From Acanthopleura granulata (lineage: Eukaryota > Mollusca > Polyplacophora > Chitonida > Chitonidae): a DNA stretch of 64,000 bases. The notes beneath the pieces are model-generated. The model saw nothing but the letters and a program-made list of their open reading frames with translations, was not told the DNA's origin and did not search any database. Below are positions 15,648-34,888 of this stretch, piece after piece. The stretch lies in assembly GCA_016165875.1 (NCBI GenBank), contig JABBOT010000080.1, positions 7,548,759-7,612,758 of the forward strand, written 5' to 3'. The translations under genes were made by a program, and so were the position numbers. Position 1 is the stretch's first letter, and each line of letters opens with the position of its first letter.

Positions 15648-15663
15648 GGTCCTGAAAAGGACC
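15648..15663 (-). terminator. Histone-type mRNA 3' stem-loop (SL1)
   Basis: The minus strand reads CCAAC-GGTCCTTTTCAGGACC-AACCA: a 6-bp stem with a four-base TTTC loop, as in replication-dependent histone mRNAs, with the usual A/C-rich flanks. It begins 38 nt after the stop codon of the small gene at 15,701. A purine-rich CCCGAAAGGAACTTTC, resembling a U7 histone downstream element, starts 13 nt after the hairpin. Confidence 0.85.
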
Positions 15664-15700
15664 GTTGGGAATTTGGGAATGTGGGAAGTGGAGAGGTTGG

Positions 15701-16018
15701 CTATGGGTGGTTTTCTCCCCCCTCCTCCAGCTCTATCGTGCTCTCTGTCTCTCCCCCGCTCTCGGCCTCTCGCCCGCTCTCCGACTCTCCCCCGCCACCT
15801 CCTCGCTGAGGGTAGAAGATTATTCGTGAAATCCTTTGGGCATCTAACCTTAGGAGCGCCTGTACAAATCGCTCCCAAGCAGTTAGCTTCTGTCCCCTAG
15901 CGGTGACTAGTTGGGGGTAAATCGCCTCCCCCTGCAGATAGGCGCGGCGCACACGCTCGTGCTTGACGCATGCTACTCCGTATTCCGCTATCGCTCTTAA
16001 AACTGGGCTCATTTCCAT
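15701..16018 (-). CDS. Small terminal-gene family protein, copy 1
   Basis: A 105-residue protein of unknown function. I place the start at MEMSPVLRAIAEYG (16,018) because the longer open frame would read through a TATA box at 16,064-16,057. Residues 1-60 look helical and share the pattern AxxYGxACxxxE...AWERxxQAx with the gene at 31,784. The C-terminal third is a Gly run followed by an acidic Glu/Ser-rich tail. The gene points outward toward the left end of the element and ends in a histone-type 3' stem-loop. It is the best preserved of the left tandem units. The N-terminal similarity to its paralogues is visible, but I recognise no named family. Confidence 0.65.
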   Translation of the reverse strand: MEMSPVLRAIAEYGVACVKHERVRRAYLQGEAIYPQLVTARGQKLTAWERFVQALLRLDAQRISRIIFYPQRGGGGGESESGREAESGGETESTIELEEGGENHP

Positions 16019-16056
16019 TGTGACCGCTGGATATGAAATGTTTAGCGCGGGCTGGC

Positions 16057-16064
16057 TTTTATAC
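16057..16064 (-). promoter_or_regulatory. TATA box of terminal gene copy 1
   Basis: TATAAAAG on the minus strand, ending about 38 nt before the ATG at 16,018. The upstream stretch (TTTGCTCTCT, then CTTTACAAGCC) matches the promoter of the plus-strand paralogue near 31,690-31,730. Confidence 0.75.
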
Positions 16065-16178
16065 AAATCAGGGGGCTTGTAAAGTCCGGTGAAGTTCGGT
16101 AAACTTCGGTGTCGCGCCAAAAAGCGGGGCGGTCACAGAGAGCAAATTTTCAGAAACAATTCATGCATAACTAAGATA

Positions 16179-16400
16179 TCATGCTTAGATATTGAAAGTT
16201 TCCTTCGGAAGGGTTGGTTGGTCCTGAGAAGGACCGTTGTTTCACCCAGCTAACCTCTCGTTTTATTTGATTTGTGTGGATTCTGTTATTTTTAGAAGCT
16301 GTGCTAGTTAGCCAACCAGCGCGGACCGAAGAGAGAACAGTTACAAGCGTCGCAGTGCCATCTATCGGACAAAACACAGACATTAAAACGATACATACAT
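16179..16400 (-). pseudogene. Terminal-gene unit lacking its coding region
   Basis: The middle of three tandem units that each begin ATCATGCTTAGATATT. The minus strand shows the unit's promoter segment (CGATAGATGG, GCGACGCTTGTAAC and CTTCGGTCCGCGC, shared with about 16,890-16,981), a weak TATA-like AAATAAAA and then, after only a few dozen bases, a histone-type stem-loop at 16,220-16,235. No reading frame lies between them. It may be a deleted copy or, less likely, a short noncoding transcript unit. Confidence 0.55.
16220..16235 (-). terminator. Histone-type stem-loop variant (SL2)
   Basis: Minus strand GGTCCTTCTCAGGACC followed by AACCAACC. The 6-bp stem is perfect. The loop is TCTC instead of TTTC, one change from the canonical loop. 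It sits in the unit that lacks a coding region, which fits relaxed selection. Confidence 0.65.
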
Positions 16401-16406
16401 AATTCA

Positions 16407-16408
<2 letters not shown>

Positions 16409-16453
<45 letters not shown>
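16409..16453. repeat. (TA)n microsatellite
   Basis: Uninterrupted TA dinucleotide run at the junction of the second and third tandem terminal-gene units. Confidence 0.95.
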
Positions 16454-16455
<2 letters not shown>

Positions 16456-16496
16456 TGCTTAGATATTTTGAAAGTTCCTTTCGGGAAGACATGGTT

Positions 16497-16512
16497 GGTC
16501 CTGAAAAGGACC
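16497..16512 (-). terminator. Histone-type mRNA 3' stem-loop (SL3)
   Basis: Minus strand CCAAA-GGTCCTTTTCAGGACC-AACCA, with a canonical stem, TTTC loop and flanks. CCCGAAAGGAACTTTC follows at the same distance as in SL1. It belongs to the unit with the start codon at 16,829. Confidence 0.85.
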
Positions 16513-16676
16513 TTTGGAAATGTGGGGAGTGGGGAGGGTGGTTGGTTTTTAATTTCCCACTCCACCCTGCTGTTCCCCCTTCTGCTTGTCCTCCTCCCCT
16601 GGCGCGGTGTTTGGTGTTGGTGTGGCTGGAGGTGTCCACGAGGGAAATGGCTTCCCCTGCGCCACACACGCCGCTC

Positions 16677-16829
16677 TCATTCCCACCAGCTGGCCACCTC
16701 CGCTCGACTATTCTCTATTTCCACTGCACCCATCGCTAGCAATCTAGCGTTGATGTTGAGACTCGGTTCATACCGTTCGTATGCCTTAGCATACTCCGCA
16801 ATGGCTGTCGCTAGCACTGCGTCATCCAT
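16677..16829 (-). pseudogene. Small terminal-gene family protein, copy 3 (interrupted)
   Basis: From the ATG at 16,829 (MDDAVLATAIAEYAKAYERYE) the N-terminal helical region resembles copy 1 (AIAEYxxAxxxxE). The frame reaches a TGA after 50 codons, at the point where the paralogues have the AWER segment. Open sequence rich in Gly, Arg and Pro continues in other frames to the stem-loop at 16,512, so an indel has probably broken the gene. A TATA box lies at 16,880-16,873. Alternatively it is a genuine 50-residue product with a long 3' UTR. Confidence 0.5.
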
Positions 16830-16872
16830 GTTATTCTTGAGTGAATGGTACAGTCCCGCTTAAACGCTGCTG

Positions 16873-16880
16873 CTTTTATA
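16873..16880 (-). promoter_or_regulatory. TATA box of terminal gene copy 3
   Basis: Minus strand GATTCATATAAAAGC, about 44 nt before the ATG. The GATTCATATAAAAG context is nearly the same as at the plus-strand gene at 31,742. Confidence 0.75.
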
Positions 16881-16991
16881 TGAATCGGGTGGATTCTGCT
16901 ATTTTTAGAACGTGTGCCAGTTAGGCAGCGCGGACCGAAGGGAAAACCGTTACAAGCATCGCAGCGCCATCTATCGGGATTCACCGTCTGT

Positions 16992-17129
16992 GGGGAATCC
17001 CCATTTTGTGACAGTTGTTTTTGTCATTATGTCAAATTTGGACCTACCTGCTGCTATTGGGGAATTTCCACAAGTTTTTGCGTCATACCAAAAAAATTTC
17101 CACAAGTTTTTTGCGTCATACCAAAAAAA
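16992..17129 (+). repeat. Displaced inner part of the inverted repeat, left
   Basis: GGGGAATCCCCATTTTGTGAC and AATTTCCACAAGTTTTTTGCG-TCATACCAAAAAAATT are the inverse of 35,310-35,406. At the right end this block directly adjoins the terminal repeat. Here it is separated from it by ~1.55 kb holding the three outward small-gene units. The TTCCACAAG-TTTTTGCGTCATACC motif is itself doubled on this side. Confidence 0.8.
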
Positions 17130-17135
17130 TTGTCC

Positions 17136-17143
17136 TATATAAA
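17136..17143 (+). promoter_or_regulatory. TATA box of the PC4-like gene
   Basis: TATATAAA, about 160 nt before the ATG at 17,303. It lies directly at the inner edge of the inverted-repeat block. The leader between them contains a (CCTG)n run. Confidence 0.65.
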
Positions 17144-17206
17144 GCTGCTCATTCCCACACTTCACCCAGCAGTCTACCTCGGGACTTCTCGCCCGTCAAC
17201 TAGCAT

Positions 17207-17275
17207 AGCCTGCCTGCCTGCCTGCCTGCCCGCCTGCCTGCCTCCCTGCCTGCCTGCCTGCCTGCCAGCCTGCTT
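17207..17275. repeat. (CCTG)n microsatellite
   Basis: About 16 CCTG units with a few substitutions, in the presumed 5' leader of the PC4-like gene. The long open frame on the opposite strand here is a by-product of the repeat. Confidence 0.9.
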
Positions 17276-17302
17276 GACTTACTTTTTTTTTCCCTCCTCA
17301 TT

Positions 17303-18259
17303 ATGCCAAGAAGTAAACAGCAGCCATCAACAACACCGACTGGGGCAATGAATACTTTTTTATCTGCCAAAGAAGAAGAAGTGGATGTACAACCCCCGCC
17401 TAAGAAGCGAATTAAACTTGGTCGGCCTGGGAAGAAGATTTCGGCGAAAACCTGTGATATCGATATTCCTAATGGGTATCGTATTCGGGTTGGAGAAGAT
17501 AAAATCACCTTCGCTCAACATGTTAACCAACCTTACGAACGGAATATAGCCATCCCGGTGAGTGCCTGGGACGAGTTTGAAAGCCTCCTACAATCACAAA
17601 CCGCTAGATGAGTAATCGGGCCTATACCAGCGAATGAAGATGGGACTGACATTAGCGTACCGTCAGAACAGCTGTTTCGGTTGAATGATGACGTTTTCTT
17701 CAGTTTGTCAACATATAACGACCCACAAACTGGGGAGCGGTGGTGGTATTTGAATATCAAACAATGGATGCACTACAGCAAGGAGGGAAAATATTATCCT
17801 AGAAAAGGTGGTATCACTTTCCGAGCTGATAGGTGGAAACACTTGAGTGAGGCCTGCCAGCGTATTCGGGGGATACTTGGAAAGACAGATGAGGGAGTGT
17901 CCTATACAGCTAATGCGTCGCCTATCTCCCCACAGCCACCAATGCCTCTCACTGATGAGGAGAACAGCTTACTTGATAATTTAACGTGGCGTATGATGAT
18001 CCAGCATATGACCCCGCTACTCAATCAAGTCAAAGAGGAACAGTGTGAGGGTTGCCGCGAGCAGCATCCTAGTCAAAATCGCCATTCGTGTCTCCAGGCA
18101 TTACAACACCTGGATATGGAGAGTGAAATTGTAGTTGAGCAAGCGGCATTACGTTTGGCTGAGACTAAGGTGCTCGATGCTTTTCGAGATGCAGCTAAAG
18201 ACGATCAATGGAGCGATGATAAAATCCGCCGGTATCTGGACAGGTGTGACATCCAGTAG
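17303..18259 (+). pseudogene. Double PC4-like ssDNA-binding protein with in-frame TGA
   Basis: Starts MPRSKQQPSTTPTGAMNTF. A Lys/Arg-rich segment (PPPKKRIKLGRPGKK) looks like a nuclear signal. Next comes a first compact beta-rich unit ending IPVSAWDEFESLL. A TGA stands at 17,609-17,611, after which the same frame stays open to the TAG at 18,257. The second part (from about 17,681) is a clear PC4/Sub1-like domain: GERWWYLNIKQWMHY, then YYPRKGGITFRADRWKHL. PC4 domains bind single-stranded DNA and act in transcription or replication. A helical tail has CEGC and C-x2-H spacing that could bind zinc. The one stop may be a nonsense mutation or read-through. If two genes, the second lacks a good start before MNDDVFFSL (17,681). 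Confidence 0.7.
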
Positions 18260-18280
18260 CGTAATCCAGATTTCTCCGAT

Positions 18281-18750
18281 ATGTTCCTCCAGCGGTTGAC
18301 AAGCGGAAAGTGTGAAGGTGACGGAGAAGGGTAAGTAAGTATTCCTTTTTTTTTTTAACAAAAAAAATATGAAAAGTCATTCTTTTTACACTGAGCTATA
18401 TGTAATGTTTAATTAATTTTATACACTAGTGTTTTCCAGGTATACTATATAAACTATGGTGCAAAGTCATGTGAGCTTATACTGAATTATAGACATGTAT
18501 ATTTATTTATTTATTTATTTATTTACTTATTTACAGACCACCTACATCTTCCCGCAAACGATTTCAATTTAACTCGGACCATGGAGGAAATATTAGAGTG
18601 CTTAATTTCGACAATTGTAAGGGTTTTCATTTGGGGAATACATCGATATCAACAGTGAATACGTATCAGGGGACTGGACGTGTGGAGACGAAGAGTACAA
18701 CAAAACTAAGCCATTACATGGACAATTTATTGAATTTTGAAATTTGGTGA
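18281..18750 (+). CDS. Spliced small protein with RHIM-like motif
   Basis: Exon 1 is 18,281-18,330, ending in a strong GTAAGTAAGT donor. The 206-bp intron ends TTATTTACAG, and exon 2 is 18,537-18,750. The product has about 87 residues. Exon 2 contains LNFDNCKGFHLGNTSIS. This resembles the RIP homotypic interaction motif, whose core is (I/V)-Q-(I/V/L)-G in an N-rich beta context; here the tetrad is F-H-L-G. RHIM segments build amyloid-like signalling contacts in innate immunity and cell death. The exon 1 frame is the same as that of the PC4-like gene, separated only by its TAG, so this exon could also be the 3' end of that gene. Motif assignment is by eye. An AATAAA follows near 18,994. Confidence 0.5.
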
Positions 18751-19330
18751 CATGTTGTTGTTGTTGTTGTTGTTGCTGTTAACTAATAGTGCTAGTTTTT
18801 GCGAGTTCTTTATATTATCGACATACTCTACGATTTTTGAATTTTGCGATTTGGTGAGAAAAAAAAAATGTTATTGTTAACTCTTAGTTCCAGTTTACGA
18901 GTTCTCGATTTATTCTTTCTGTACATATCTTGAAGGTTGAATACTGTAAAACATCGTTATCTTGTTCAGTGCGTTTGTAATGTTCGAGTAAAAAAATAAA
19001 AGAGAAAAAAAAAAGTGTGGAAAAATATGTGTTTGTTTGTTTTATGATGTAGCAGTTTATCTTGATAACCGGTCTTGATCTGATTGATGTTTAGTGTCTT
19101 TTATCGTGGGCTAAAAAAAAAAGATTGGTGTTGATTTCTATTTATTCCTAGTCTACGACTCCCAGGCTTACTGCGTGATTTATGGTGCGAAGAGTATCTC
19201 CCCTTGAAACGGGAAAAGGTTTGGCTGACAGTCAATGGGAGGTAACTCATGCCAAACCTCACTTTAGCAGTTTTCGTACATGTACGTATAAATATCACTA
19301 AATATTGAGGCTCCGTATATATGTATACGT
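18751..19330. other. Spacer before the Bcl-2-like gene
   Basis: AT-rich. It has a GTT repeat (18,752-18,780), a likely poly(A) signal AATAAA near 18,994 and a TATA-like TAGTATAAGA at 19,340-19,349 serving the next gene. No protein gene seen. Confidence 0.6.
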
Positions 19331-19414
19331 CGGTCAAGGGTAGTATAAGACGTGTGGTGCTCTACAATATTTCATTATTATTTCACTAGCTACACAGGTG
19401 ACAAGACGTCTAAG

Positions 19415-19774
19415 ATGAAATCGCGGGTTTTAGAATGGAGAGAACTTGTTGATTCAGTAACCGACCTCCAAGCATATAAGGGGGTAGTGGAATCTATGTT
19501 TGAAGATCAACTGGTGAATGAAGGACGCTGCACTATTCTCCGACTATTCACCAAAGACGTTTGTGACCGGCTAGAGAATTCTAATCCGATTCGTAAATAC
19601 TATCACCAGGAAGTTATACCGAAACTCATGGACTTACAGCGCAAGTCACCCACTACAACCCCTATAAAACCTGAATCAATATCTCTCACGCCCCGGATGC
19701 TTTACACATCTCTAGCTGTCTGTATCACTTGCGCCGCTACTTGTTGGTTTTTAGTGAAAATGGGTATAAAATAA
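19415..19774 (+). CDS. Tail-anchored Bcl-2-like protein (tentative)
   Basis: A 119-residue protein. The ATG at 19,415 is preferred because upstream in-frame codons lack an ATG. Residues 1-75 are helical and include VESMFEDQLVNEGRCTILRLF, reminiscent of the BH1 signature (F-x-D-x-x-N-x-GR). The C-terminus MLYTSLAVCITCAATCWFLVKMGIK is a single hydrophobic anchor with a short basic end, the layout of tail-anchored Bcl-2 proteins on mitochondria or ER. Bcl-2 homologues are known in some adintoviruses, which supports the reading. The protein is short for the family and no BH2 is apparent, so it might be an unrelated tail-anchored protein. Confidence 0.5.
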   Translation: MKSRVLEWRELVDSVTDLQAYKGVVESMFEDQLVNEGRCTILRLFTKDVCDRLENSNPIRKYYHQEVIPKLMDLQRKSPTTTPIKPESISLTPRMLYTSLAVCITCAATCWFLVKMGIK

Positions 19775-19790
19775 AACGAACCTGACCAAT

Positions 19791-20960
19791 ATGACTTACC
19801 GCCGAGGAAGGAAGAAGAGAGTTCGATTCCATACGAGGACAAAGAAGAAGAACAAAATGGGCATAACAAAATCTCAGGATACACTCGCTAAAGTCTTACA
19901 ACAGCTGTATTATGACCCCCAAAGTGCAGCTGCTTATAGTGGAGTGGGTGCTTTATTACGGACAGCACGTCAGCATGATTTACCTGTGTCACGTGACGAT
20001 ATAAAGACTTGGTTGGCCGAACAGGAGGCGTATACACTTCATCGGCCGGCTCGGCGACACTATGCTCGTAATAGAGTTATTGTGGGTGGAATAGACAGTC
20101 AGTGGCAAGCTGACTTGGTTGACATGAGTAAACTAGCCAGGTATAATTCAGGTAACCGGTACTTGCTCACATGCATCGATATTCTTTCTAAATACGCTTG
20201 GGTAGTCCCCGTACCTACTAAGACAGGTGCTAACCTCATTGAGGCACTTAAAAGGATATTCAAGTCTGGACGAAAACCATTATTTTTACAAACTGACGAG
20301 GGAACAGAGTTTCTCAACAAGCCATTTCAGACATTTTTAAAGAAACATGGGATTTTTTATTTTCATACATTTAATGAAACGAAAGCTTCCGTAATTGAGC
20401 GGTTTAATCGCACCTTTAAAGGTCGGGTGCATAAATATTTCACCACTAATAACACTCGACGTTACCTGGATGTTTTACCTGGCTTAACGGAGGGTTACAA
20501 TCGTGCGTATCACCGCAGCATTCAGCGAGCCCCGATTACCGTTACAACTGACAATGGACATGAAGTTCGGGCTATATTATATAGCTCTATGAAGTCCTGG
20601 TGCAGTCGGCGAATTTATCGGTATAAAATAGGAGATCTCGTTCGCATTAGTAAAGTCAAGAGAACTTTTGAGAAGTCTTACCTATCTAACTGGAGTCAAG
20701 AAATTTTCCGCGTTGTAGCACGGCATCCTCGCGAACCTGTGGTGTATACATTAGCTGATTTGAATGGAGAAAAACTCTCGGGGACATTTTATGAGGCAGA
20801 ACTCCAACCCGTTAAAACAACACTGGTATCGTACTATCAAGTGGAGAGAGTATTAGGTAGCAAAAAAGAACGTGGCAAAACATATTACTTGGTGAAATGG
20901 CGAGACTGGCCAGCTAGTTTTAATTCGTGGGTGCCAGCGAGAGATGTTAAACGTATTTAA
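19791..20960 (+). CDS. Polinton integrase with chromodomain
   Basis: Retroviral-type integrase, 389 residues, which joins the element's ends to target DNA and produces the 6-bp duplication. The N-terminus is very basic (YRRGRKKRVRF). A helical region follows (KVLQQLYYDPQSAAAYSG). The catalytic core has D108 (WQADLVDM), D169 (LQTDEGTEF) and E203 (VIERFNRTFK), giving an intact D,D-E triad. The last ~45 residues form a chromodomain (YYQVERVLGSKKERGKTYYL, then VKWRDWPASFNSWVP), suggesting targeting through modified histones. The frame is intact. It starts 17 nt after the preceding stop, and MGITKSQ at codon 23 is an alternative start. Confidence 0.95.
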   Translation: MTYRRGRKKRVRFHTRTKKKNKMGITKSQDTLAKVLQQLYYDPQSAAAYSGVGALLRTARQHDLPVSRDDIKTWLAEQEAYTLHRPARRHYARNRVIVGGIDSQWQADLVDMSKLARYNSGNRYLLTCIDILSKYAWVVPVPTKTGANLIEALKRIFKSGRKPLFLQTDEGTEFLNKPFQTFLKKHGIFYFHTFNETKASVIERFNRTFKGRVHKYFTTNNTRRYLDVLPGLTEGYNRAYHRSIQRAPITVTTDNGHEVRAILYSSMKSWCSRRIYRYKIGDLVRISKVKRTFEKSYLSNWSQEIFRVVARHPREPVVYTLADLNGEKLSGTFYEAELQPVKTTLVSYYQVERVLGSKKERGKTYYLVKWRDWPASFNSWVPARDVKRI

Positions 20961-21000
20961 AAACAGTTTTCATTCTACCTGTGCTCAGTCTCCTCTCACG

Positions 21001-21117
21001 ATGCCTAAGTGTGTGGGTGACTGTGTGCGAAGTGTACGTGAGAATAAAGGCCCCGCTATAGTTGCAGGTGTCGTCCTGTTGTATATTGGATTGTTATATC
21101 GGTGGAGTGGGAATTGA
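21001..21117 (+). CDS. Small membrane protein
   Basis: A 38-codon frame from ATG at 21,001. It has a cysteine-containing polar N-terminus and one hydrophobic span (AIVAGVVLLYIGLLYRW). The +1 frame stays open from here to 21,736 and encodes a charged region (LTSQLTEDKYFLRILQERLN) and then a Pro/Ser/Thr-rich stretch, without an ATG of its own. The two may be one gene split by a frameshift near 21,080-21,117. Polintons commonly carry a short membrane protein near the ATPase, but I cannot name this one. Confidence 0.45.
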   Translation: MPKCVGDCVRSVRENKGPAIVAGVVLLYIGLLYRWSGN

Positions 21118-21640
21118 TTTAACATCCCAACTGACTGAAGACAAATATTTTCTACGCATCCTGCAAGAGCGATTGAACAAGACGCTATTTGATAAGTTAT
21201 TGATTAATAAGACGGAGCGCTTGCCCTCGGTATTTACCAGGCGTCATAGATTACTCGGGAGGACGGACATTACCGCGATTCCTTCTTCTTCTCCAGTCCC
21301 TACTCAACCCCGAACTTACCAAAGCCCGAACACAGTACCTAGTATTCGAGATATTACTAGCCCAGTTTGGCCTGGCGGTATTACTGAGCAAACTAAGCGC
21401 AAGACTGAACTTACTACTGCACCTGCACAGGTGAATTCATCTCAGCGCAGTACCGTAAACACTGAACCTACCAGCCCACCTGCTCCAGCACCTGTACAGG
21501 TGAATTCATCTCAACACAGTTCCGTAGAGACTGCCCCTACGAGCCCGCCTGCCCAGGAGAATTCATCTCAGCACACCTCCGTATCTTACCAGCCCCAACC
21601 TCGTCAATCCCAGCCAATTTCCTTCAACTTGACTTTACCA
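21118..21640 (+). pseudogene. Pro/Ser/Thr-rich frame upstream of the ATPase
   Basis: Open frame (21,062 to 21,736, coding-like to about 21,640) with no ATG. A charged helical part leads into a low-complexity region with three ~60-bp tandem units encoding QVNSSQ-S-V and PTSPPA. It is probably either the C-terminal part of the small membrane protein or a linker to the ATPase that begins at 21,649 in another frame. An indel must separate it from one or both. Confidence 0.45.
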
Positions 21641-21648
21641 CTGAGCCT

Positions 21649-22249
21649 ATGGATGTACGATGGAGCCACCCATTTACCTGCCTTGTCAGCGGACCGACCG
21701 GAAGTGGTAAATCGGTCTTCGTCAAACGTGTTATAGAGCATGCTAGCCAACTTATTCACCCATCTCCCCACCGCGTGGTATGGTGTTACGGCGAATGGCA
21801 ACCCATGTATGCTACCTTACCAAATGTCGAATCTCAAGAAGGTATACCTAGTCCGACAGCGTTTAATCCAGAGGAACGGACTTTAGTAATTGTTGATGAT
21901 TTAATGGCTGAAGCAGACGTGTGTAACAGCGCTATTTACGAAGGGAAGTCACCCTCGTAATATCAGTGTGATCTACATTGTGCAGAATCTGTTTAACAAA
22001 AGCAAAGACCATAGAACGATTAGCTTAAACGCTCATTACTTAGTCGTATTTAAAAACCCCCGAGACTCTTCTCAAATTACTACCATTGCTAAACAAATGG
22101 CCCCAGGTAAAACTCAGTACGTGCAAGAAGCCTTTAAAGACGCCACGAATATTTGCTTGTTGATTTCAAACAAACTACACCCGATCATCTCCGTTTGCGC
22201 ACGCATATTTTTCCTGATGATTCCATGCAGTTTGTTTACCTCCCCAAAT
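21649..22249 (+). pseudogene. Packaging ATPase (FtsK/HerA type), frames broken
   Basis: DNA-packaging ATPase of the virion module. The first frame (21,649-21,960) has Walker A (GPTGSGKS) 15 residues from its start and Walker B (LVIVDDL). The match then shifts one base near 21,945 into the frame beginning around IYIVQNLFNKSKDHR. That frame keeps the conserved sensor-like segment up to about 22,160. The last ~30 codons, to a TAA near 22,248, lie in yet another frame. At least two indels therefore interrupt the gene. All motifs remain recognisable, so decay is recent. Confidence 0.85.
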
Positions 22250-22352
22250 CATAAAAATATGAACTTTCAGGGGGGAATAACTCTCACAGGCATATGCAAT
22301 AAAACCTCCCGACATATCACTTACTGCGTCATTATATAATTAGACACTGACC

Positions 22353-22694
22353 ATATCAGCACGATTACGTCGCTTTGCACCTTTGATAAAACTTCTGGTC
22401 AAGGGTGATCGGCAAGTGAAGGACGCAATTCTTCATGGACCTAATGGTGAATTTATTCGCTGTATATGCGAGGTTTGTAAGAACATTTTAAATGGGAATA
22501 TCCCATTGACACCAGCTCAGAAGGCTCGGTTACGTCCGCACAAGATACATCTACGTGCACTAGTAAACAAGCGCACTCCGCTTCACCGCAAACGGACAAT
22601 TATACAGAGAGGTGGAATAGCACCCCTCCTTCTGGGGGCCCTTCCGCTTGCTGCCTCTTTTCTAGGTAATTTGTTTAGCGGGGGCCGTCGTTAA
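22353..22694 (+). CDS. Virion core-like protein, start codon apparently lost
   Basis: An open frame of about 114 codons between the TAG at 22,341 and the TAA at 22,694. It has cysteines in IRCICEVCKNIL, then IPLTPAQKARLRPHK, a Lys/Arg-rich middle and a hydrophobic Gly-rich end (GGIAPLLLGALPLAASFLG). This layout recurs in Polinton/adintovirus virion clusters and is likely DNA-associated. No ATG precedes the conserved part. The codon at 22,353, in an ACC-x context where a start would be expected, is ATA. Translation may use a non-AUG codon, or the gene is dead. It lies between ATPase and capsid genes, as usual. Confidence 0.6.
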   Translation: MSARLRRFAPLIKLLVKGDRQVKDAILHGPNGEFIRCICEVCKNILNGNIPLTPAQKARLRPHKIHLRALVNKRTPLHRKRTIIQRGGIAPLLLGALPLAASFLGNLFSGGRR

Positions 22695-22707
22695 GAAAGA
22701 AAAAAAA

Positions 22708-23256
22708 ATGTCTCATATGAAGAAAATGGCCCTAGTTGAACCTCGTTTGTTGGACGGATTGCTTCGCCCCACTTCACCTTACCCTGTGCCGTCTACTGTC
22801 AAACTCCTCAACACATTAGATGGAGATATGGAAAGAATTTTAAAGAATGGGACATTGTCAAATGAAGATAAAATTTACCAGTACCAACAAGCCCTTCAAC
22901 GCTACTTGACATTTCACAACCAGTACCAGCAAAGTCTCAATCCCCCACCACCGCCGCCGCCGCCGGCTACGCCATCTGTACCCACTCAAGCACCCTGGGA
23001 CGTGGGAGAAAAAGAGAAGGAAGCAACAGACTTAGGATATCGGGCGGAAGGCATGTTGACACCTCATAAACCAAAGGGGTCATCTCCAATTTCCCGGTAC
23101 AAGAAGCGTAAATCCAAGCCTAAAAAATCAAAAGCTGAATGGGAACGACTACGGGAGGCGTGGCGGCATACCGCCACCCCAATCAAGACCTCATCTCGTG
23201 GTGATTCAAAAACCAAACGTAAAATTACCAAACCTCTGCAGTGGTCTCCTTATTAA
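22708..23256 (+). CDS. Conserved Polinton virion-cluster protein
   Basis: 182 residues from ATG at 22,708, 14 nt after the preceding gene. The N-terminus KKMALVEPRLLDGLL and the helical LLNTLDGDMERIL and YQQALQRYLTFHNQYQQ are typical of an uncharacterised protein found beside capsid genes in many Polintons. A proline tract (NPPPPPPPPATP) then links to a very basic C-terminus (YKKRKSKPKKSK). It probably has a structural or DNA-binding role in the virion. It overlaps upstream leader sequence of the minor capsid gene. Confidence 0.7.
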   Translation: MSHMKKMALVEPRLLDGLLRPTSPYPVPSTVKLLNTLDGDMERILKNGTLSNEDKIYQYQQALQRYLTFHNQYQQSLNPPPPPPPPATPSVPTQAPWDVGEKEKEATDLGYRAEGMLTPHKPKGSSPISRYKKRKSKPKKSKAEWERLREAWRHTATPIKTSSRGDSKTKRKITKPLQWSPY

Positions 23257-23312
23257 AAACGGGTTCCTCATGCTGTAGAATTAGTCGGACTCTGAGACGT
23301 GGGATAAACAGC

Positions 23313-24161: not shown

Positions 24162-24184
24162 CACGTGACCAAAAAAATTCAAAA

Positions 24185-24731: not shown

Positions 24732-24750
24732 CACCCATATCCATCCTGCC

Positions 24751-26160: not shown

Positions 26161-26161
26161 C

Positions 26162-26668
26162 ATGAACAGCGAACAATTATTACAATGTCTTCAAACGGAT
26201 CCTTATACACGTGACTTGGTGCAAGGTGTGCTCCCTTGGAATGATTTACCTGCACGAATGCTGCATCGACCTGCTATATATATTTTAAACACCGATCCTT
26301 GTACGAAACCTGGTACACATTGGATTGCATTATATATAGATTATGAGGAAACCACACATCACTTGTCTGAAGATTATTTTGATTCTTATGCGCTTCCACC
26401 CTGGCGTAAGGAGGTAGAAACGTGGCTAAATCGGGGTACGGACCATTGGCAATCGAATCATTGCCCCTTACAATGCTTAAATACCGCTGTGTGCGGTCAA
26501 TATTGTTTGTATTTCGCGCTCCATCGAGCGAGAGGACGAACAATGAACTGTATTACGCAAACATTTAATTCCCAACCCACAGATTATACGAATGATCTAT
26601 TGGTTTATGATTGGGTCGAAAGATTGTTCGGTATCCACCCTCCTTTCTTTGGTGATTACAAAACATAG
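26162..26668 (+). CDS. Adenain-like cysteine protease
   Basis: 168 residues. The C5/C48-type triad is in order: His53 in GTHWIALYID, Asp74 in DYFDSYALPP, Gln104 in NHCPLQCLN, and the probable nucleophile Cys111 in VCGQYCLYF. It would process virion precursors such as the pVI-like protein. It is the last gene of the rightward virion block. AATAAA follows at about 26,691. The frame is intact. Confidence 0.93.
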   Translation: MNSEQLLQCLQTDPYTRDLVQGVLPWNDLPARMLHRPAIYILNTDPCTKPGTHWIALYIDYEETTHHLSEDYFDSYALPPWRKEVETWLNRGTDHWQSNHCPLQCLNTAVCGQYCLYFALHRARGRTMNCITQTFNSQPTDYTNDLLVYDWVERLFGIHPPFFGDYKT

Positions 26669-27020
26669 ATGCCCATTGTTGCCAAGATTGTAATAAATCA
26701 TAATCGAATGAAATCACCAGTTAATCAGACATTTTTTTTTATCTATTCTCCCATGTTTATTGTTGTTGTACAAACATATACTGATAACAAGGGATATACT
26801 AGTACAATGTTGCACAGAGGCTGTATTTTTGCTGATTAGAACAATGCATATATACAATGATGAGTGTTGTTAAAAAAAAAATGACATGTTTCATTCCAGT
26901 TGTTTGTTCTTGTTTATTGAACCAAAAAATTAATGAAAACTGAGATCTCACCAAAATAACATGTTTTCTTTGTTTTATTTACAAAATATTCGGAATCTTA
27001 AAATATATTTACATATGTAT
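26669..27020. other. Convergent 3' region between protease and polymerase
   Basis: AT-rich spacer where the rightward virion block meets the leftward polymerase. Poly(A)-type signals occur for both strands: AATAAA near 26,691 (plus) and TCAATAAAC on the minus strand near 26,913-26,921. No gene seen. Confidence 0.65.
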
Positions 27021-28106
27021 CTAAATATCCAGGTAAGTCGTGCTTACCCCATCAGGCAAAATCTTACGTTTAGCATAAAAATACGTGAAAGCGTCCTTAT
27101 GCTGTGTATAGGAACACATTTGATGTCCACGTACACGCATGCCACGATTGACTCCCGCTGCACTTCGTCCCTCCTGGAGCACCGAGAGATACAAACCCTT
27201 TTGAGCACTGTGACGGTTTACTCCTTTGCATGAAAATTTATCACCATCTCCACTGTCCCCAGCATAGCAGTAATATGTTTTGGAACATAAAGCGATAATA
27301 CCATCTCCACTCCATTCTACTTTAAACAGACCAGGCGTACGTTTGTCATGTTGATAATAATCTCGACGAGGTAACCAGCGGTCACGCTCAGCTTCGTAAG
27401 CTTCTCGCAGCTCAGGTTTAACCAAGGATTCCCAATTAGGCTCCGACCATGCAATGTATGCTGAATCTGTATCTGTTTCCACGAGTTGATAATCACAGGA
27501 ATGAAAATATTTTGCCAGGAAATCGTAATAGAATTCCAGCATGCGGAGTTTGGCGTACTGATATACCATACACCCTATCTGTAAGGGTGAATTATAAGAG
27601 ATCCGTTTCTTAGAGCACGTGACCTCATACGTAGCATCATCAATTTCCTCCACGTTAATACATGCATCTGAATTAACTAATTTCCGAGCTTTCTCTAGCG
27701 TACACACTTTCACATTCACATGGCGATCTTGATTAGTAATTGTCTTTCCATATCCCGAATTTCCTAATAGCTTCATCGTTTCACCTATTAACACCTTGTT
27801 GGGATCTACATCCCCTTGACGTCGGGCTTGAGTCACGTGATCGGCAAAGGTGCGAAAGCAGGTTTCAGGTGTGTATTGCACAGCTTGATACACGCGAGTT
27901 ACAACCAGTCCATGAGCCAAATACCATCTTAGCAGAGGGGTGCCCAAGAGAATTTTCGTTCCACACATACTTCCTATTAATGTACGGCGGGGCTGAGTCA
28001 TAATATTATTGGCCTTGGCATATTCTTTCATAGTCGGACCGATATCTTCTACAGTGACATTCGCGAATGATACAAGCATACGTATATAAGTATAAAGCGT
28101 GTACAT
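27021..28106 (-). pseudogene. Polymerase B, C-terminal (palm/thumb) part
   Basis: The second half of the protein-primed B-family polymerase, coding-like from about 28,077 down to the stop at 27,021. Motif B is KLLGNSGYGKT, motif C is ETDTDSAYIA (the metal-binding TDTDS), and the late KxY-like motif is CSKTYYC. The first ~12 codons of this open frame read AT-rich microsatellite and are unlikely to be genuine. The preceding half lies at 28,265-30,666. The segment normally linking the two is missing (see the gap entry). Without it the gene is probably not functional, though both halves keep catalytic residues. Confidence 0.88.
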
Positions 28107-28264
28107 TGTTCTATATATGTATATATATAAGTATGTATATATGTATATACATGCATATATTCCACATGTTATAAATTATAGCGCTACATTTACCCAATCT
28201 TTTTTTTTTCATACATACATAATTATTTTATATATATTACATATACAAGAGATAATACATTACC
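28107..28264 (-). repeat. AT-rich microsatellite filling a gap in polymerase B
   Basis: TATATATGTATATA-type repeats lie between the codons for RRTIFQ and the segment beginning VSFANVTVEDIG. The RRTIFQ side runs into GTAATG, a weak donor-like sequence. The best AG (near 28,115) does not keep the frame. Intact relatives encode on the order of a hundred residues here, as far as I recall the family, so I read this as a deletion with microsatellite growth. A degenerate intron is the alternative. Confidence 0.65.
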
Positions 28265-30666
28265 TGGAAAATAGTGCGTCGACCGTTCACCACAGCAAAG
28301 CCGTCAACAGGGAGCCGACGATCACCAACTCTCCGTTCCACATCGGTCAGCCGATGACGAATAGGGACGCCCAGCTGAGCCGCTTGCCAGTCTAGCCACT
28401 GTTCAGCCAGTCGAGGTTTTTTGGACTCTTTCGGATAAAAATTTATAGTGTCTTGTCTCTCTTCTTCTATGGGTAGCCAGCGGATATAATGTCCAGCCGG
28501 CATAGGTGATGCTAAGCAAGCTAGGTATGACGCATTAGCGTCAAAACCGACAATTCCCTGGCATAATTTTCCTCCCCTAATACGAGTCACCCCCTTCTCA
28601 TGAAAGCGATGAAATACAATACTTGATCCCCCGACAATATTCGATCTCAGACATTGATAAAGATCTTTATCCCCTTCTCCTATTAAGGAAAAGTAAGTTG
28701 GGAGATTTTGAAAAAAGTAACGTAAAGTGACCCCAGGAATACTAATACAGTCTTTAAATAGATCTACACGCATGGTTTGATAAAACGCTGACATCTTTCC
28801 CAAAGCTTCAAGAAATGGAATGACGTCGAGATTATTGTACCAAATCAGAAAATCACGCAGGGTCTTCATTCCGTGTGATTGCCACACATTCTCCAAAGCC
28901 TGGTAATCTTCTTCAGAGCAAAAAGTCCCTTTTAACTTGTTATGGAAAGCTTCACGCGGTGGGAGATTTGTCTCATCTAAACGTGCTAAACTATCGACGT
29001 ATTCGTAACAAAACTGTCCTTTGGTCACCTGACATTCATAAGCTTTGACCCATTTATCATCACTATAATTCGGGGCTAAATAATTTCGCACGTCTAAAAA
29101 TCTCAGCTGACCTGTAGACGCACTCATGTGATCGTTATTCCGCTTGATAACGTATTTTAACCCATCAGTTTTCACTAAATACGGATACAGCTGTCGCTTT
29201 ATTAAATTAAAATCATATTTCCCAGGATTAAAACCCAAAACAGGGAGTTCGGTTAGGTATGTTAAAAATCGCTCCTTGAGTTTTTCTGTGTAAGATTTCT
29301 TTTTGGTTTCGCAGGAAAAGTCACATAGTGCGGCTATACCTATACACTCATCCAAGCTGTCTAACACGTGGTGGTAATGTTGACATAACAGCTTAAAACT
29401 AGCTTCACTGATCTCAGTGAGATATGCCATCATAGTTTCAATCAAAGCGTGCGGATCACCCGTTGATACAAAACACATCGGTTTGTCATATCCAGGAACG
29501 TTACTGTTAACAGACACGCTCATGGGAATATGGAGGGCAGTCCATTCTGTGTTTTCACCACTGTTAGCTGCAGAAGGGTCTAATTTTTGGAGATAGGCCT
29601 CAAAATCAAAACAAGCTCTATATGGGAAATACCTGTCCTCTTCAGCGACATCAATAATTCCTTCGTCAGCTAACTCCTCGAAAACAGTGGCTTTGTTTTT
29701 AAACACACCGCCTGGATACACTCGTTTGATAACCCCATCACAAGTCCGTGCATGCCGTTTTAATTTCCAGGCCTTGGGAAATGATTTATGACAAACCCTG
29801 CACAGATAAGAACGAGCGTATAAATTCATATCTTTCACCACGCTAAAATGCTTCTCGTGTAAATTAAGAGTCAAAGTAGTAGCGTATCGCTTGGCGGACC
29901 TATGAAGAATCTCAGCGCACAAATCTGTATCAACTACTAATAGTTCATACACAAATATGTTTACGTTAAATAAATCCTCCAAAAAAAACAGTTCGGTGAG
30001 CGGGACACCTCGGAAATACCTGGCTTCCATACCTTTAGCTTTCAAGTAAATTTTTAAATAACCCTTAGCTTTAACAGTACAGCATCTGGGGTTAGTGTTG
30101 TCTAGGTGAAAGGCTAAGCAACGGAAGAAACACAAATGATCATCGTAAGCACCATGTCCACCACTCACCATGCTGTGCAAGCCTTTATTATTCTGCACGT
30201 GGGCAGGTAAATCTACCGGTGCACCGATGGGTGTGGTATGTGGTTTATGCACATAAAACGCAACATTAGTCACACTGTCTACCACCCATTTGGTATTTGG
30301 GCGCTGTTGTCGGGCTGATTCGATCGGATCGATAGCTGACAAATCAGCAGTAAGTGTTTGTATATCCCCATAGGTGTGAATATATCGACATTCTGAAAGT
30401 ATTCTTGTATTTGTACTCGGATAGAAATAACGCAATTGGTCCGTATCTCGATGACGTAAAATGAAACCGTAAGCTAGGTTGATACGGAAAGCTGAAGGCT
30501 GGTCAAGAAACACCTGTTCCAGGTGTGTAGCTAAAGGATAGAGTCCCTTGATTCGGAAATTATACACATCCTGCAAAGGTCGATGGCAATGAAATTGCTG
30601 GTGGATAGCGCCCCCAGTGACGTTGATATATGTCACGTTATGCCGGGTCTGTAGGTAACTCATCAT
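28265..30666 (-). pseudogene. Polymerase B, N-terminal and exonuclease part
   Basis: About 800 codons from ATG at 30,666. An N-terminal region with CFFRCLAFHLD is followed by a C2H2 finger near residues 288-308 (YLCRVCHKSFPKAWKLKRH). The 3'-5' exonuclease motifs come next: ExoI FDFEA near 353-357, ExoII GFNPGKYDFNLIK and an ExoIII-like YECQVTKGQFCYEYVD. Polymerase motif A follows near the end (GFDANASYLACLASP). The frame is open throughout but runs into the microsatellite gap at its 3' end. The polymerase would replicate the element by protein priming. Motifs are intact on this side. The gene is transcribed opposite to the virion block. Confidence 0.88.
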
Positions 30667-30943
30667 ATGAAGGTGTGATAGGGTTCAAGGGAAATGAATT
30701 AGGGCCGTTATTGAGGTTAACCTGACCCTTTACATTACCGACCGAGGCAGTATGAAGTTCACCCTGATCATCCACATCGCTTTCTGGCCCCAGCGGACTA
30801 AACACAGCCTTAGGTGAGGGCGCTTGATTGACAGGTGAGAGTAATGAGGAGCCCTTGGAGCGTTCGGATCTAGCAGCAGACTGGCCCCGGCGCTTTGATG
30901 TTGAAGTGGTTACACGACCTCCAGTCTGTGAAATGGGCTGCAC
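30638..30943 (-). CDS. Low-complexity exon upstream of polymerase B
   Basis: Open frame with Ser/Thr/Pro/Arg-rich composition (STSKRRGQSAARSERSKGSS, then NQAPSPKAVFSPLGPESD), overlapping the polymerase start by 29 bp in another frame. A probable 71-bp intron precedes it (31,014-30,944: GTAAGC donor, poly-T tract, TTATACAG acceptor). It could be an alternative or original N-terminus of the polymerase or a separate small product. The 5' exon has no start codon in a matching frame, so the coding status is uncertain. Confidence 0.4.
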   Translation of the reverse strand: MQPISQTGGRVTTSTSKRRGQSAARSERSKGSSLLSPVNQAPSPKAVFSPLGPESDVDDQGELHTASVGNVKGQVNLNNGPNSFPLNPITPSYDELPTDPA

Positions 30944-31089
30944 CTGTATAACCAAAAAAAAAAACCCCCAAAAATCATAAAATACTGGCATAGTCCTACT
31001 ATTTAATAGCTTACCGTATGTGCATAAATATAACACACAAAGTGTATACCTTATCAGTTTAACCTAGAACACAGGTAAGAACGGACGTC

Positions 31090-31278
31090 ATGCCTCTCAA
31101 GAAGAAACGAAATCGACCGAGGAAATACAATACATACAAACGCCGGAGTCGGAGGAAGATGAAGAAGACTCGGGGAAATAATTTACAGCTAGCTATGCGG
31201 CGAAAATTCCGACATCGGAGACTTAGAAATAACTATGAATCGCCTGGAGATTTCTACCACTGTGTAACCCATATCTAG
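31090..31278 (+). CDS. 62-residue very basic protein
   Basis: MPLKKKRNRPRKYNTYKRRS and onward: close to 40% Lys/Arg, with no acidic stretch until the end. The start sits in an ACGTC-ATG context. It is transcribed divergently from the polymerase leader, so the ~55 bp between may be a shared promoter. Composition and size recall small viral core peptides that condense DNA. No homologue is recognised. A poly(A)-like AATAAA lies at 31,350. Confidence 0.6.
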   Translation: MPLKKKRNRPRKYNTYKRRSRRKMKKTRGNNLQLAMRRKFRHRRLRNNYESPGDFYHCVTHI

Positions 31279-31612
31279 TGATTTTTGACTACCCAACGAA
31301 AACAAAACGGACGAACCAACCAGCCAACCCGACCTGACCATAGACCTTATAAATAAAAGGTCGCCCTATTCTGTCGAAAGAGTCTTTCTAATAGAAAAGC
31401 ACTACATTATTTTCACAGTTACTTATTTGTCTTTTATATGTGTCAAATAATAAATATATGTTTTGTGTTGTGTACATCGTAATTATACTCTATTATATAT
31501 ATATAAACAAATTGTATTATGTCTGTATTATTAAGTTTGATATGTGTGCTGGAATATATGTGCGTGTGTGTATTTAAAATACGCAGTTCACATAGGCGAT
31601 ATCGCTATGTTA

Positions 31613-31749
31613 GTAAAACACAAGGGATTGAAAATCCACAGCCGCTGGTACGGTATAGTCCCTATCATCCAATCAGATGCATGGGATTTTGCTCTCTATT
31701 TGGTCCGCAGCGCTGTCAAACTTTACAAGCCGACCAATTCATATAAAAG
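31613..31749 (+). promoter_or_regulatory. Promoter of terminal gene at 31,784
   Basis: CCAAT boxes (ATCCAATCAG at about 31,667 and ACCAATT at 31,732), TTTTGCTCTCT, CTTTACAAGCC and TATAAAAG at 31,742-31,749. The last three elements recur in order upstream of the left-end copy 1 on the other strand. The upstream GTAAAACACAAGG-ATTGAAAAT block recurs at 32,633 without a gene. Confidence 0.7.
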
Positions 31750-31783
31750 GGAAACTCACTCACTTTCCACTACACACGTCAAC

Positions 31784-32065
31784 ATGGCTGACGAAGAGCT
31801 GCAGCGACGTGGGATTGCGTACGGCCAAGCCTGTGCGCGATATGAAGAAACCGTAAAATACGCTATGTACGATTGCATGGGGGAAAACAGAGAGGTGGAA
31901 ATCAGCGAGGCTAGAGCGGTGAGAAGAGACGCCTGGGAGAGGCTGCTGCAAGCAGTCATATCCGTAACGGCTGAAATGGCGATAACATCGGGCAACCAGC
32001 TAGCCAGCCAGCGCCGGAGACAAAAGCCGGGCAGCGCGGTGAGGCGAGTCGGACCGCTACCATAG
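31784..32065 (+). CDS. Small terminal-gene family protein, right copy
   Basis: 93 residues, MADEELQRRGIAYGQACARY. The start is chosen 35 nt after the TATA box; the longer open frame would include the promoter. The N-terminal two thirds are helical with AYGQACARYE and AWERLLQAV, matching left copy 1 (EYGVACVKHE, AWERFVQAL). The C-terminus is Arg/Gln-rich (ASQRRRQKPGSAVRR) instead of acidic. It points outward toward the right end and is followed 30 nt after the stop by a histone-type 3' stem-loop, the spacing seen in histone genes. The function is unknown and it is not a histone by sequence. Confidence 0.72.
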   Translation: MADEELQRRGIAYGQACARYEETVKYAMYDCMGENREVEISEARAVRRDAWERLLQAVISVTAEMAITSGNQLASQRRRQKPGSAVRRVGPLP

Positions 32066-32095
32066 CCGTCCCTGGAGTGAACCGTGCAATCCAAA

Positions 32096-32111
32096 GGCCC
32101 TTTTCAGGGCC
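32096..32111 (+). terminator. Histone-type mRNA 3' stem-loop (SL4)
   Basis: CCAAA-GGCCCTTTTCAGGGCC-AAACCA: a perfect 6-bp stem, TTTC loop and canonical flanks. The purine element CTGAAAAGATTTT starts about 11-14 nt downstream. It lies 30 nt after the stop codon of the small gene at 31,784. Confidence 0.88.
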
Positions 32112-33110
32112 AAACCAATTCTTCTGAAAAGATTTTGCTTTCAAAATTTGACCACGTTATATATGTATATATATTGAATTATGTATGTCTCGTTTTAATG
32201 TTTGTGATTTACCCGTTTTATGTAAAAACAAACACAAAAAAAAAATCAACCCTCCTAACATGCAGCCCCATGATAACTGGTTCGCTAGTGATTTATTTTT
32301 TACATACATGCATGTACATACATACATATATGTGCATACATGCACAGCAAATTATACTAGTTTTTTTTTTCATCCCCCATGTAACACTACCATTTACACC
32401 CATACTAGGGAAAACAAATTATGTACATATCCTTTCTAATGATTAAATTTATATGTCAAAACTAAAAAGCTGATATTTTCACACCGCATTTGTTTTTTAT
32501 TATATTTCTGTACATACAAAGAAGCTATTGATATCTCTCTATATGCTGGCATAGTCCTGTGTACTCTATGATCCCAAATATTGTTTTCAATATCAGCACA
32601 ATATACTATAAGGCAAACGGCTATGCTATAGTAAAACACAAGGATTGAAAATTTCCTAGCACTGCTCAGACATCGCCCACTATCGACCAATCAGAACAGC
32701 AGAATTTGCCCTGCCTTCAGTTTGTACCGATAGAGCGTACATCTACTGTTGTGCTTCTCTGGGGGTGTAAAACACCAATTATCTCTTTACCTCTTTCATA
32801 TTTTATACACACGTTGACGAATTATGTATATTAATGAGTTCTATTTTTTAATTATTAGATTATATCTCAATAAAAGTTGATATTTAAACCTATATTCTTA
32901 TATTTCCACCCAAAAAAGAGACACGGTAAAAACACAATGCTTGTAAATGCAGAAAGCCCACGTGACCGCTATAAACCAATGCGAAATGGTGAAATCGTTC
33001 TCTCTCACCGTCGCGCTTTTTGGGCATTCCGCTGCGGGAGTTTACGAGCACCGGTATATTTATTTCATAAAAACAACTCCTGGAGTACACCCGTCCGCGC
33101 ATTTTTTTTT
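32112..33110. other. Spacer with orphan promoter remnants
   Basis: AT-rich spacer. A second copy of the terminal-gene promoter block (GTAAAACACAAGGATTGAAAAT, then GACCAATCAGAACAGCAG) lies at 32,633-32,735 with no reading frame or stem-loop after it. A third CCAAT-bearing GC-rich patch lies at about 32,960-33,060. No protein gene is supported. Confidence 0.55.
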
Positions 33111-33177
33111 CTTTCTTCACCAATCACTGCTCAGATAATTCCAAAACCACTGCTTTTGTTTAGATCCGCGCTGCTGT

Positions 33178-33184
33178 TATATAG
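33178..33184 (+). promoter_or_regulatory. TATA box of the terminal gene at 33,272
   Basis: TATATAG 88 nt before the ATG, with a CCAAT motif (CACCAATCACTG) about 65 nt further upstream. Confidence 0.6.
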
Positions 33185-33271
33185 TCTGCGAGCATTGGTG
33201 ACAGACGCACAGTCACTCTACTGCATTTCTGCGGGAGCTGATTTCACGACAAAAACCCAGAGAGGAAGATT

Positions 33272-33610
33272 ATGGATTCACTCACGGAGATGATTATTCG
33301 ATTACGAGACTGCCCCAGCATCTTAGTACGTACAGGGGACCCTGAAACGGATAGACTACCGTTATGGCGATTCCTCCTGAAGAAACGACTGGAATACTTT
33401 TACAAGGAGTATGAAACAGCCTTTTTAAAATACATGGAAGCCTTAGAGCAACAAGTTATGGTGGGCCCAGGACCAGAGTTTACAAGACTCCTCCACTTAC
33501 ATGCAGCAGAGGTGAATGAACTGGAGCACATCATGGAACGGAATCGTGTGAGACTTTTACGTGCGGGGGTGGAATATAGACATTTGGAAGAACCGCCCAA
33601 CAACAACTAA
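33272..33610 (+). CDS. Terminal gene, rightmost copy
   Basis: 112 residues, largely helical and charged (LKKRLEYFYKEYETAFLKYM, then HAAEVNELEHIMERNRVRLL). It has weak resemblance to the other terminal genes (YE then a second helix of similar length), so common origin is plausible but not certain. TATA box upstream, outward orientation, and a perfect histone-type stem-loop 191 nt after the stop link it functionally to them. Confidence 0.65.
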   Translation: MDSLTEMIIRLRDCPSILVRTGDPETDRLPLWRFLLKKRLEYFYKEYETAFLKYMEALEQQVMVGPGPEFTRLLHLHAAEVNELEHIMERNRVRLLRAGVEYRHLEEPPNNN

Positions 33611-33801
33611 CCATCTCGTTATTGCACATTTGTAGTTGTTGTGATATTTATATCAAATTCCCAGATCTGTCTTTCAGATCTTCTACTCCACCGATTCAAC
33701 AACAACAAGAACTAAGTCTCATAACCAACGGCTTCTCTCCCATTACGGACTCTCGTTATAATCACGGCTTCTCTTCATCACGGACTCTCCCTATATTCAA
33801 A

Positions 33802-33817
33802 GGCTCTTTTCAGAGCC
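33802..33817 (+). terminator. Histone-type mRNA 3' stem-loop (SL5)
   Basis: TTCAAA-GGCTCTTTTCAGAGCC-ACCCACC. The hairpin and ACCCA flank match the metazoan histone consensus exactly. CGAAAGGATTTTTT starts 13 nt downstream as a likely U7-pairing element. Confidence 0.9.
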
Positions 33818-33839
33818 ACCCACCCTGTCGAAAGGATTT

Positions 33840-34852: not shown

Positions 34853-34883
<31 letters not shown>

Positions 34884-34888
34884 TCACC

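Follow-up and report, generated by a model that had tools for sequence, protein, structure and literature searches.

Probable histone-type mRNA 3' ends on small genes near both ends of a chiton Polinton

A 64,000-nucleotide stretch of the genome of the chiton Acanthopleura granulata (GCA_016165875.1, contig JABBOT010000080.1, positions 7,548,759 to 7,612,758; hereafter the window) contains a Polinton, a virus-like transposon, in which four small genes, A, C, D and E, appear to end in the 3' processing signals of replication-dependent histone mRNAs. We give a probability of roughly 0.85 to the reading that these are authentic ends of this type, borne by genes near both ends of the element and processed by host SLBP and the U7 small nuclear ribonucleoprotein (snRNP) as replication-dependent histone mRNAs are, without poly(A). 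The histone-type reading of these non-histone genes was proposed in an initial annotation of the sequence, and it has been strengthened by matches to the Rfam Histone3 model, by likeness to the histone genes of the host, by recurrence across the genome, and by compensatory change in the stems of gene E relatives.

The initial annotation described four perfect hairpins and one loop variant, and all five were recovered at the same positions and on the same strands (Table 1). The covariance model it suggested as a check (RF00032, Histone3, run with cmscan) matches every one: D and E exceed the gathering score of 34, A, B and C fall below it (27.8-30.2 bits, library-wide E-values 1e-4 to 9e-4), and there is no further match at E-value ≤1 in the 64-kb window. 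A strict hairpin rule also found five in the window, all within the element, as against a mean of 0.003 and a maximum of 1 over 300 Markov-generated sequences matching the element in composition; a chance origin is ruled out by this control together with reversed-pattern and background-segment controls. The five signals are confined to the terminal quarters of the element, each directed outward. Each is followed by a purine element resembling the histone downstream element (HDE), which starts 12-14 nt past the stem (5/5), within the 10-18 nt first described. The flanks correspond to the original description only in part: CCAAA precedes C and D, but the 5' flanks from A to E read CCAAC, ACAAC, CCAAA, CCAAA and TCAAA, and the 3' flank of D is AAACC instead of AACCA or ACCCA. 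Positions 3 and 4 of the stems vary with compensation (UA/CG, CG/UA), and 30 of 30 cells are paired. Finally, a RAGCAY box is present in strict form in A, B, C and E, with D reading GACCAC instead; because this box was missing from the initial description, its presence constitutes independent support.

The same module is found at the ends of the host's own histone genes. In the host genome (606.5 Mb in 87 contigs), the strict stem-loop pattern has 295 matches and the reversed pattern has none. Locations were taken from the first 100 of the 295, 23 of which fall in a single cluster (C3, 36.594-36.705 Mb) with histone-like genes in the 7.5 kb read (L032). Loci ending in the module include those that we take, by their sequence, to be H4 (L017), H3 (L068), H2A (L072) and H1 (L015, L020, L057 and L066; that of L015 also by Pfam). 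In these histone 3' ends the stem-loop is followed by an AAC-rich stretch, a GAAAG-like element at +12-14 and, in most cases, RAGCAY at +30-33. The same order is seen in Polinton genes, both in the window and in other copies, with RAGCAY at +31-38 where present. The purine element occurs in 9/10 histone and 25/25 Polinton rows and RAGCAY in 8/10 and 20/25, respectively, although the rows were hand-picked from stem-loop-positive loci and the counts therefore describe the module, not its frequency. By this sequence comparison, the window signals are the same as the host histone gene ends in stem-loop, purine element and, except in D, downstream box. A study of bivalves reports a stem-loop in all of its histone mRNAs and the purine element in some (PMC6210712).

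The hairpins were originally said to follow sense-strand reading frames, which holds for A, C, D and E, while unit B has no open reading frame (ORF). The spacing from stop to hairpin, initially given as 30 and 38 nt in the two best genes, is 30 nt for D, 37 nt for A, 191 nt for E and 36 nt for the second short ORF of C; a longer open relative of gene C is found in L018. With Pfam, nothing came near the cut-off on A, C, D or E and there was no histone-fold or linker-histone match, with Linker_histone found in host locus L015 as a positive control; capture of a whole histone gene by the element was ruled out, as the scanned ORFs contain no histone match. The proteins of D and A align with a local score of 71, as against 27.5 in shuffles (0/2000 as high), and shuffles as high were seen in 14/2000 for D-C and 25/2000 for A-C. 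The D-A similarity is confined to the annotated coding frames and is strongest at codon position 2. At the DNA level, the coding regions of A and D are at chance (61% identity, null 63%), while stem-loop plus HDE reach 80% (null 60%); the modules of A and C share 98% identity across 45 nt. A 13-base promoter box, ATTCATATAAAAG, is identical in C and D, 43 and 34 bases ahead of the ATG, and a close variant lies 37 bases ahead of the ATG of gene A. On these alignments A, C and D belong together as paralogues; given also the near-identity of the A and C modules, the five hairpins do not represent five independent gains. No homology of gene E to A, C or D was detectable by protein comparison. D is predicted to form a two-helix hairpin (mean pLDDT 82.7) with no fold match at E-value ≤0.001, the structure model of E is poor (mean pLDDT 64), and neither has a protein-database relative at E-value ≤10.

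Unit B (16195-16300, minus strand) has a TATA-like stretch, AATAAAAC, that begins 32 nt ahead of the stem-loop, with no ORF between. This promoter-like stretch resembles that of gene C and is followed by the stem-loop and purine element; the unit may possibly yield a very short stem-loop RNA. Stem-loops like that of unit B occur in other copies (L018, L044, L050 and L053).

Outward-facing pairs of stem-loops resembling those of the window lie 15-18 kb apart at several places in the genome (Table 1). Protein searches of the host genome returned 131 matches to E, 103 to D and 66 to PolB, fragments included, from which 73, 55 and 55, respectively, were used for co-location. Among the matches used there are 40 D-E pairs at a spacing of 943-1773 nt, 40/40 on the same strand, and an E-like match lies within 12 kb of 29 of the 55 PolB places; 34 of the 66 listed stem-loops outside two clusters are no more than 20 kb from one of the used matches to PolB, D or E. 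We also note that C27:3239813-3295156 holds at least five tandem copies of the D-E pair or parts of it, mostly ~10 kb apart.

Because copies found through their stem-loops must carry one, the test of gene E was built on copies found through protein. The sample comprised 70 of the 131 E-like matches, 30 of them excised by the search itself and 40 chosen across identities; some are near-identical tandem copies, so that not all are independent. A stem-loop of score ≥22 lies within 500 nt downstream of 37/70 E-like loci, as against 0/70 upstream and 1/172 in background segments; by E protein identity the proportion is 17/21 at ≥85%, 10/27 at 60-85% and 10/22 below 60%. Three further E-like loci, two of them broken copies, have a stem-loop at 522-601 nt downstream. 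The Histone3 model matches 10 of 20 E-like loci under 60% identity (20 of 22 examined), all on the sense strand. Among distant relatives of E, down to 33-54% identity, several stems have changed on both sides and are still paired (GGCCTT/AAGGCC in L128, L130, L131 and L132; GGTCTT/AAGACC in L138; AGCCTT/AAGGCT in L120). For 17 distinct E stems (score ≥21, 40 loci), 93.1% of cells are paired versus 83.9% (standard deviation 1.8) when shuffled, with 0/2000 shuffles as high, although the stem-loop score itself rewards pairing and this excess is support rather than proof. Stem-loops were also seen beside 29/45 open E frames versus 8/25 broken ones (Fisher p = 0.013). Judged by these sequences, the E signal behaves as expected if selection maintains it as a functional element and it decays once a copy is dead. 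The initial annotation had said that hairpins absent from all related elements would refute it; both other Polinton copies and many of the protein-found E relatives carry them. Two stem-loop patterns searched for beyond the host genome matched only L001, L004 and L005, which look like phage coding DNA, have no Histone3 match, and were rejected.

Several results weigh against the proposed histone-type processing. The hairpin of E lies 191 nt past its stop, compared with 30-50 nt in the host histone genes seen, and in gene C an ATTAAA falls 123 nt past the first stop, ahead of the hairpin. Within the window, covariation is weak, with five sequences and 11/500 shuffles reaching the observed score. 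Of the 70 E-like loci, 33 lack a stem-loop scoring ≥22 in the first 500 nt. D-like genes at 40-65% identity matched Histone3 at E-value ≤1 in 3/20 cases, and on our own stem-loop score reached ≥22 in 1/20 and ≥21 in 4/20; these may be relatives of another gene or of a lineage without the signal, or the signal may have been lost. The Polinton on contigs L002 and L003 of a tubeworm metagenome-assembled genome (MAG) had no Histone3 match, though its element ends are missing. E2F-like sites number 7 in the window versus 5.1 expected, and this lack of enrichment rules them out as a mark of S-phase promoters. For U7 small nuclear RNA there was no Rfam match in the host, and none in the control genomes either.

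The element would use two modes of 3' end formation, as AATAAA is found 23-82 nt past the stop in 4 of 21 tabulated ORFs (integrase, protease, the C-terminal frame of PolB and a small basic ORF). The 370 nt past the stops of A, D and E contain no AATAAA and no ATTAAA. The remaining tabulated ORFs are likewise without AATAAA within 100 nt, perhaps reflecting polycistronic or degraded stretches, and the contrast between the two kinds of 3' end is therefore suggestive only. Some histone genes are reported to make polyadenylated forms as well, and the terminal genes could similarly have dual 3' ends: the stem-loop would serve during S phase, while other cells would make polyadenylated forms from a weak poly(A) site farther downstream. 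This modification, compatible with histone-type processing, would suit gene D, which carries ATTAAA at +376 and AATAAA at +803, but gene A has neither motif in the 414 nt that remain before the element ends and E has none within 1 kb of its stop; we consider it rather unlikely.

The hairpins might instead be hitchhiking relics: an ancestral Polinton captured a histone 3' end, duplications spread it, and it is now without function. Donor sequence is at hand in the host histone genes, and paralogy of A, C and D with near-identical A and C modules is what such spreading would leave. However, the signal is also on E, which has no detectable homology to A/C/D, and the relic reading is already weakened by the compensatory change in E stems, which remain paired down to 33% protein identity; together with the higher frequency of stem-loops beside open than broken E frames, this makes the relic explanation highly improbable. 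We give as little credence, or slightly less, to another role for the hairpin, as an SLBP decoy RNA or as a signal in the DNA itself, near the termini, that serves replication or packaging. The promoter-like stretch and stem-loop of the ORF-less unit B, and the terminal, outward-directed placement of the five window signals, would fit such a role, but 4/5 signals stand on the sense strand behind ORFs, and all carry the purine element seen in host histone genes, which would be superfluous for a DNA signal or decoy.

Histone-type 3' processing thus remains our preferred reading, and its course can be sketched from the histone pathway, in which the stem-loop is bound by SLBP, the purine element by base pairing with the U7 snRNP, and the RNA is cleaved 4-5 nt past the stem. 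The SLBP RNA-binding domain has two neighbouring matches above the cut-off in the host, ≤0.3 kb apart (C1:6020119-6020610), which we read as exons of one gene. Host SLBP would bind the stem-loop of the Polinton pre-mRNA and the U7 snRNP would pair with the purine element; cleavage a few nucleotides past the stem would leave a non-polyadenylated mRNA ending in the stem-loop. Cleavage, the absence of poly(A) and the use of U7 at the Polinton genes are steps that we infer. SLBP is abundant in the germline or embryo. Synthesis and translation of histone-type messages coincide with its presence, so most production of the proteins of A, C, D and E would be expected during S phase or else in the oocyte and the early embryo. 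That the histone-type end gates Polinton genes to S phase is, in our estimate, somewhat probable. Such timing would profit a DNA element that depends on host replication and germline access, and a gain in copy number through host replication, or in access to the germline or embryo, is plausible.

The initial annotation held the signal to be almost confined to histone genes, and in this genome that is not the case, as it is also carried by a family of non-histone genes and by a dispersed repeat. The gene family encodes proteins of 100-159 residues with the same stem-loop end, three members being 44-46% identical to the first, and has no Pfam match near the cut-off; the member L064 sits in a tandem array on C10 (period ~1.86 kb, at least 11 stem-loops). 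The proposal that gene family X is a domesticated E gene was unsupported (hhalign probability 10%). The dispersed repeat, alignable over ~360 nt (L021, L022, L030, L034, L054, L061 and L065), has AACAGTTAT or a close variant after the stem-loop in most copies, with stems that vary (GGCTCT, GGTTCT). We lean, if only slightly, toward the broader view that in this animal the histone-mRNA pathway is an open niche for selfish DNA, that its Polintons use non-polyadenylated mRNAs to gate several non-histone proteins to SLBP-positive cells (S-phase, oocyte, embryo), and that, the gene family and the repeat having adopted the same 3' end, stem-loop mRNAs extend more widely here than histones.

Polintons are recognized by long terminal inverted repeats (TIRs), AG..CT ends and a 6-bp target-site duplication (TSD), and the window element has all of these, with its left arm 97% complementary to 35416-35559 (Table 1). 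It also has both a viral-type PolB and a retrovirus-type integrase. With Pfam, the integrase scores 53.3 bits for rve (cut-off 32.6), the first PolB frame 34.5 bits for DNA_pol_B_2 (cut-off 25.8) with the second frame below cut-off, and the protease 20.1 bits for Peptidase_C5, just under the cut-off of 21.3. Polintons are further marked by an adenain-like protease, a packaging ATPase and capsid proteins with double and single jelly-roll folds. We take the ORFs labelled major capsid protein, minor capsid protein and ATPase as candidates by sequence; the packaging ATPase and capsid candidates have tblastn matches to ORFs of another PolB element, L002. This contig belongs to the MAG of an Escarpia laminata endosymbiont, and 11 window ORFs or ORF pieces match its Polinton at 35-66% identity, with no counterpart of A, D or E in L002, which is without element ends. 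The Polinton-type DNA in L002 and L003, both bacterial MAG contigs, is most likely host contamination of the MAG. Among named PolB relatives the best, at 53% identity, comes from the chiton Liolophura sinensis. In IMG/VR no relatives were returned by PolB, PolB-alignment or capsid queries, and the phage records queried by integrase gave no match. A small C2H2 zinc-finger ORF lies near the right end of the element (34783-35094, minus strand), and a minisatellite of 13-base spacing (35696-35937) adjoins that end.

Table 1. Coordinates of features in the window (unprefixed positions) and at other host loci
Feature	Position	Strand	Details
Stem-loop A	15648..15663	-	GGTCCT TTTC AGGACC; Histone3 29.8 bits (15622-15668)
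Stem-loop B	16220..16235	-	GGTCCT TCTC AGGACC; Histone3 27.8 bits (16195-16240)
Stem-loop C	16497..16512	-	GGTCCT TTTC AGGACC; Histone3 30.2 bits (16471-16517)
Stem-loop D	32096..32111	+	GGCCCT TTTC AGGGCC; Histone3 34.8 bits (32091-32136)
Stem-loop E	33802..33817	+	GGCTCT TTTC AGAGCC; Histone3 39.0 bits (33797-33842)
Purine element (HDE-like) of A	15626..15633	-	GAAAGGAA, 14 nt past stem
Purine element of B	16200..16206	-	GAAGGAA
Purine element of C	16475..16482	-	GAAAGGAA
Purine element of D	32126..32132	+	GAAAAGA
Purine element of E	33830..33836	+	GAAAGGA
Gene A	15701..16018	-	105 aa; TATA-like box 16056-16068
Gene C	16677..16829	-	50-aa open frame, then second short frame closer to hairpin; promoter box ATTCATATAAAAG 16873-16885
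Gene D	31784..32065	+	93 aa; promoter box ATTCATATAAAAG 31737-31749
Gene E	33272..33610	+	112 aa
Polinton/Maverick element	15292..35554		20,263 bp; ends AGTAGTATA...TATACTACT; TSD GACGTT on both flanks, perfect 6 bp
Left TIR	15292..15430	+	detected arm 15287-15430 takes in flanking TSD letters
Right TIR	35416..35554	-	
Integrase, rve + chromodomain	19791..20960	+	AATAAA 82 nt past stop
Minor capsid protein candidate	23241..24161	+	37% identity to L002
Major capsid protein candidate	24670..26100	+	44% identity to L002 ORF
Adenain-like protease	26162..26668	+	AATAAA 23 nt past stop
DNA polymerase B, two open frames	27021..30666	-	28237-30666 and 27021-28106; AATAAA 41 nt past end of second
Outward stem-loop pair	C9:4420482/4438725	-/+	
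Outward stem-loop pair	C12:18176968/18194475	-/+	
Outward stem-loop pair	C5:27555269/27572725	-/+	
Non-histone family member	L064 4120-4440	-	
Non-histone family member	L067 397-873		
Non-histone family member	L028 218-592	-	
Non-histone family member	L037 239-538	-	

A stem-loop end is considered a hallmark of histone mRNAs, and standard libraries miss non-polyadenylated mRNAs. We found no published account of histone-type mRNA ends in Polintons in the open literature searched (5.39 million papers), a coverage that mostly leaves out subscription journals, and term searches of two papers on Polintons and adintoviruses (PMC8097293, PMC11071308) gave 0 occurrences of stem-loop, histone or polyadenylation terms. 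If the histone-type reading is correct, the element would offer a clear example of a virus-like parasite coupling its gene expression to host DNA synthesis through mRNA 3' ends. This could help to explain how such genes escape annotation, D and E being without protein-database relatives, and the many E-like and D-like matches in this one genome would provide natural variation with which the SLBP/U7 code becomes testable.

In its general organization the element resembles the Polinton/Maverick elements and adintoviruses of animals, with which it shares TIRs, a 6-bp TSD, PolB, an rve-chromo integrase, a putative adenain-like protease and capsid candidates. Its terminal signals resemble the replication-dependent histone 3' end (RF00032) in the 6-bp stem, the 4-nt loop, the A/C flanks and the purine element 12-14 nt on, as well as in a host-type RAGCAY box in 4/5 window units; unlike replication-dependent histone genes, however, the Polinton genes are not recognisable histones, D being predicted as a two-helix hairpin. 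A further parallel is the 'Histoid' of adomaviruses, a virus-encoded histone-like gene according to PMC11071296. Both are DNA viruses or virus-like elements that draw on histone biology, although in adomaviruses it is the protein that is histone-like, whereas in the Polinton it would be only the mRNA end.

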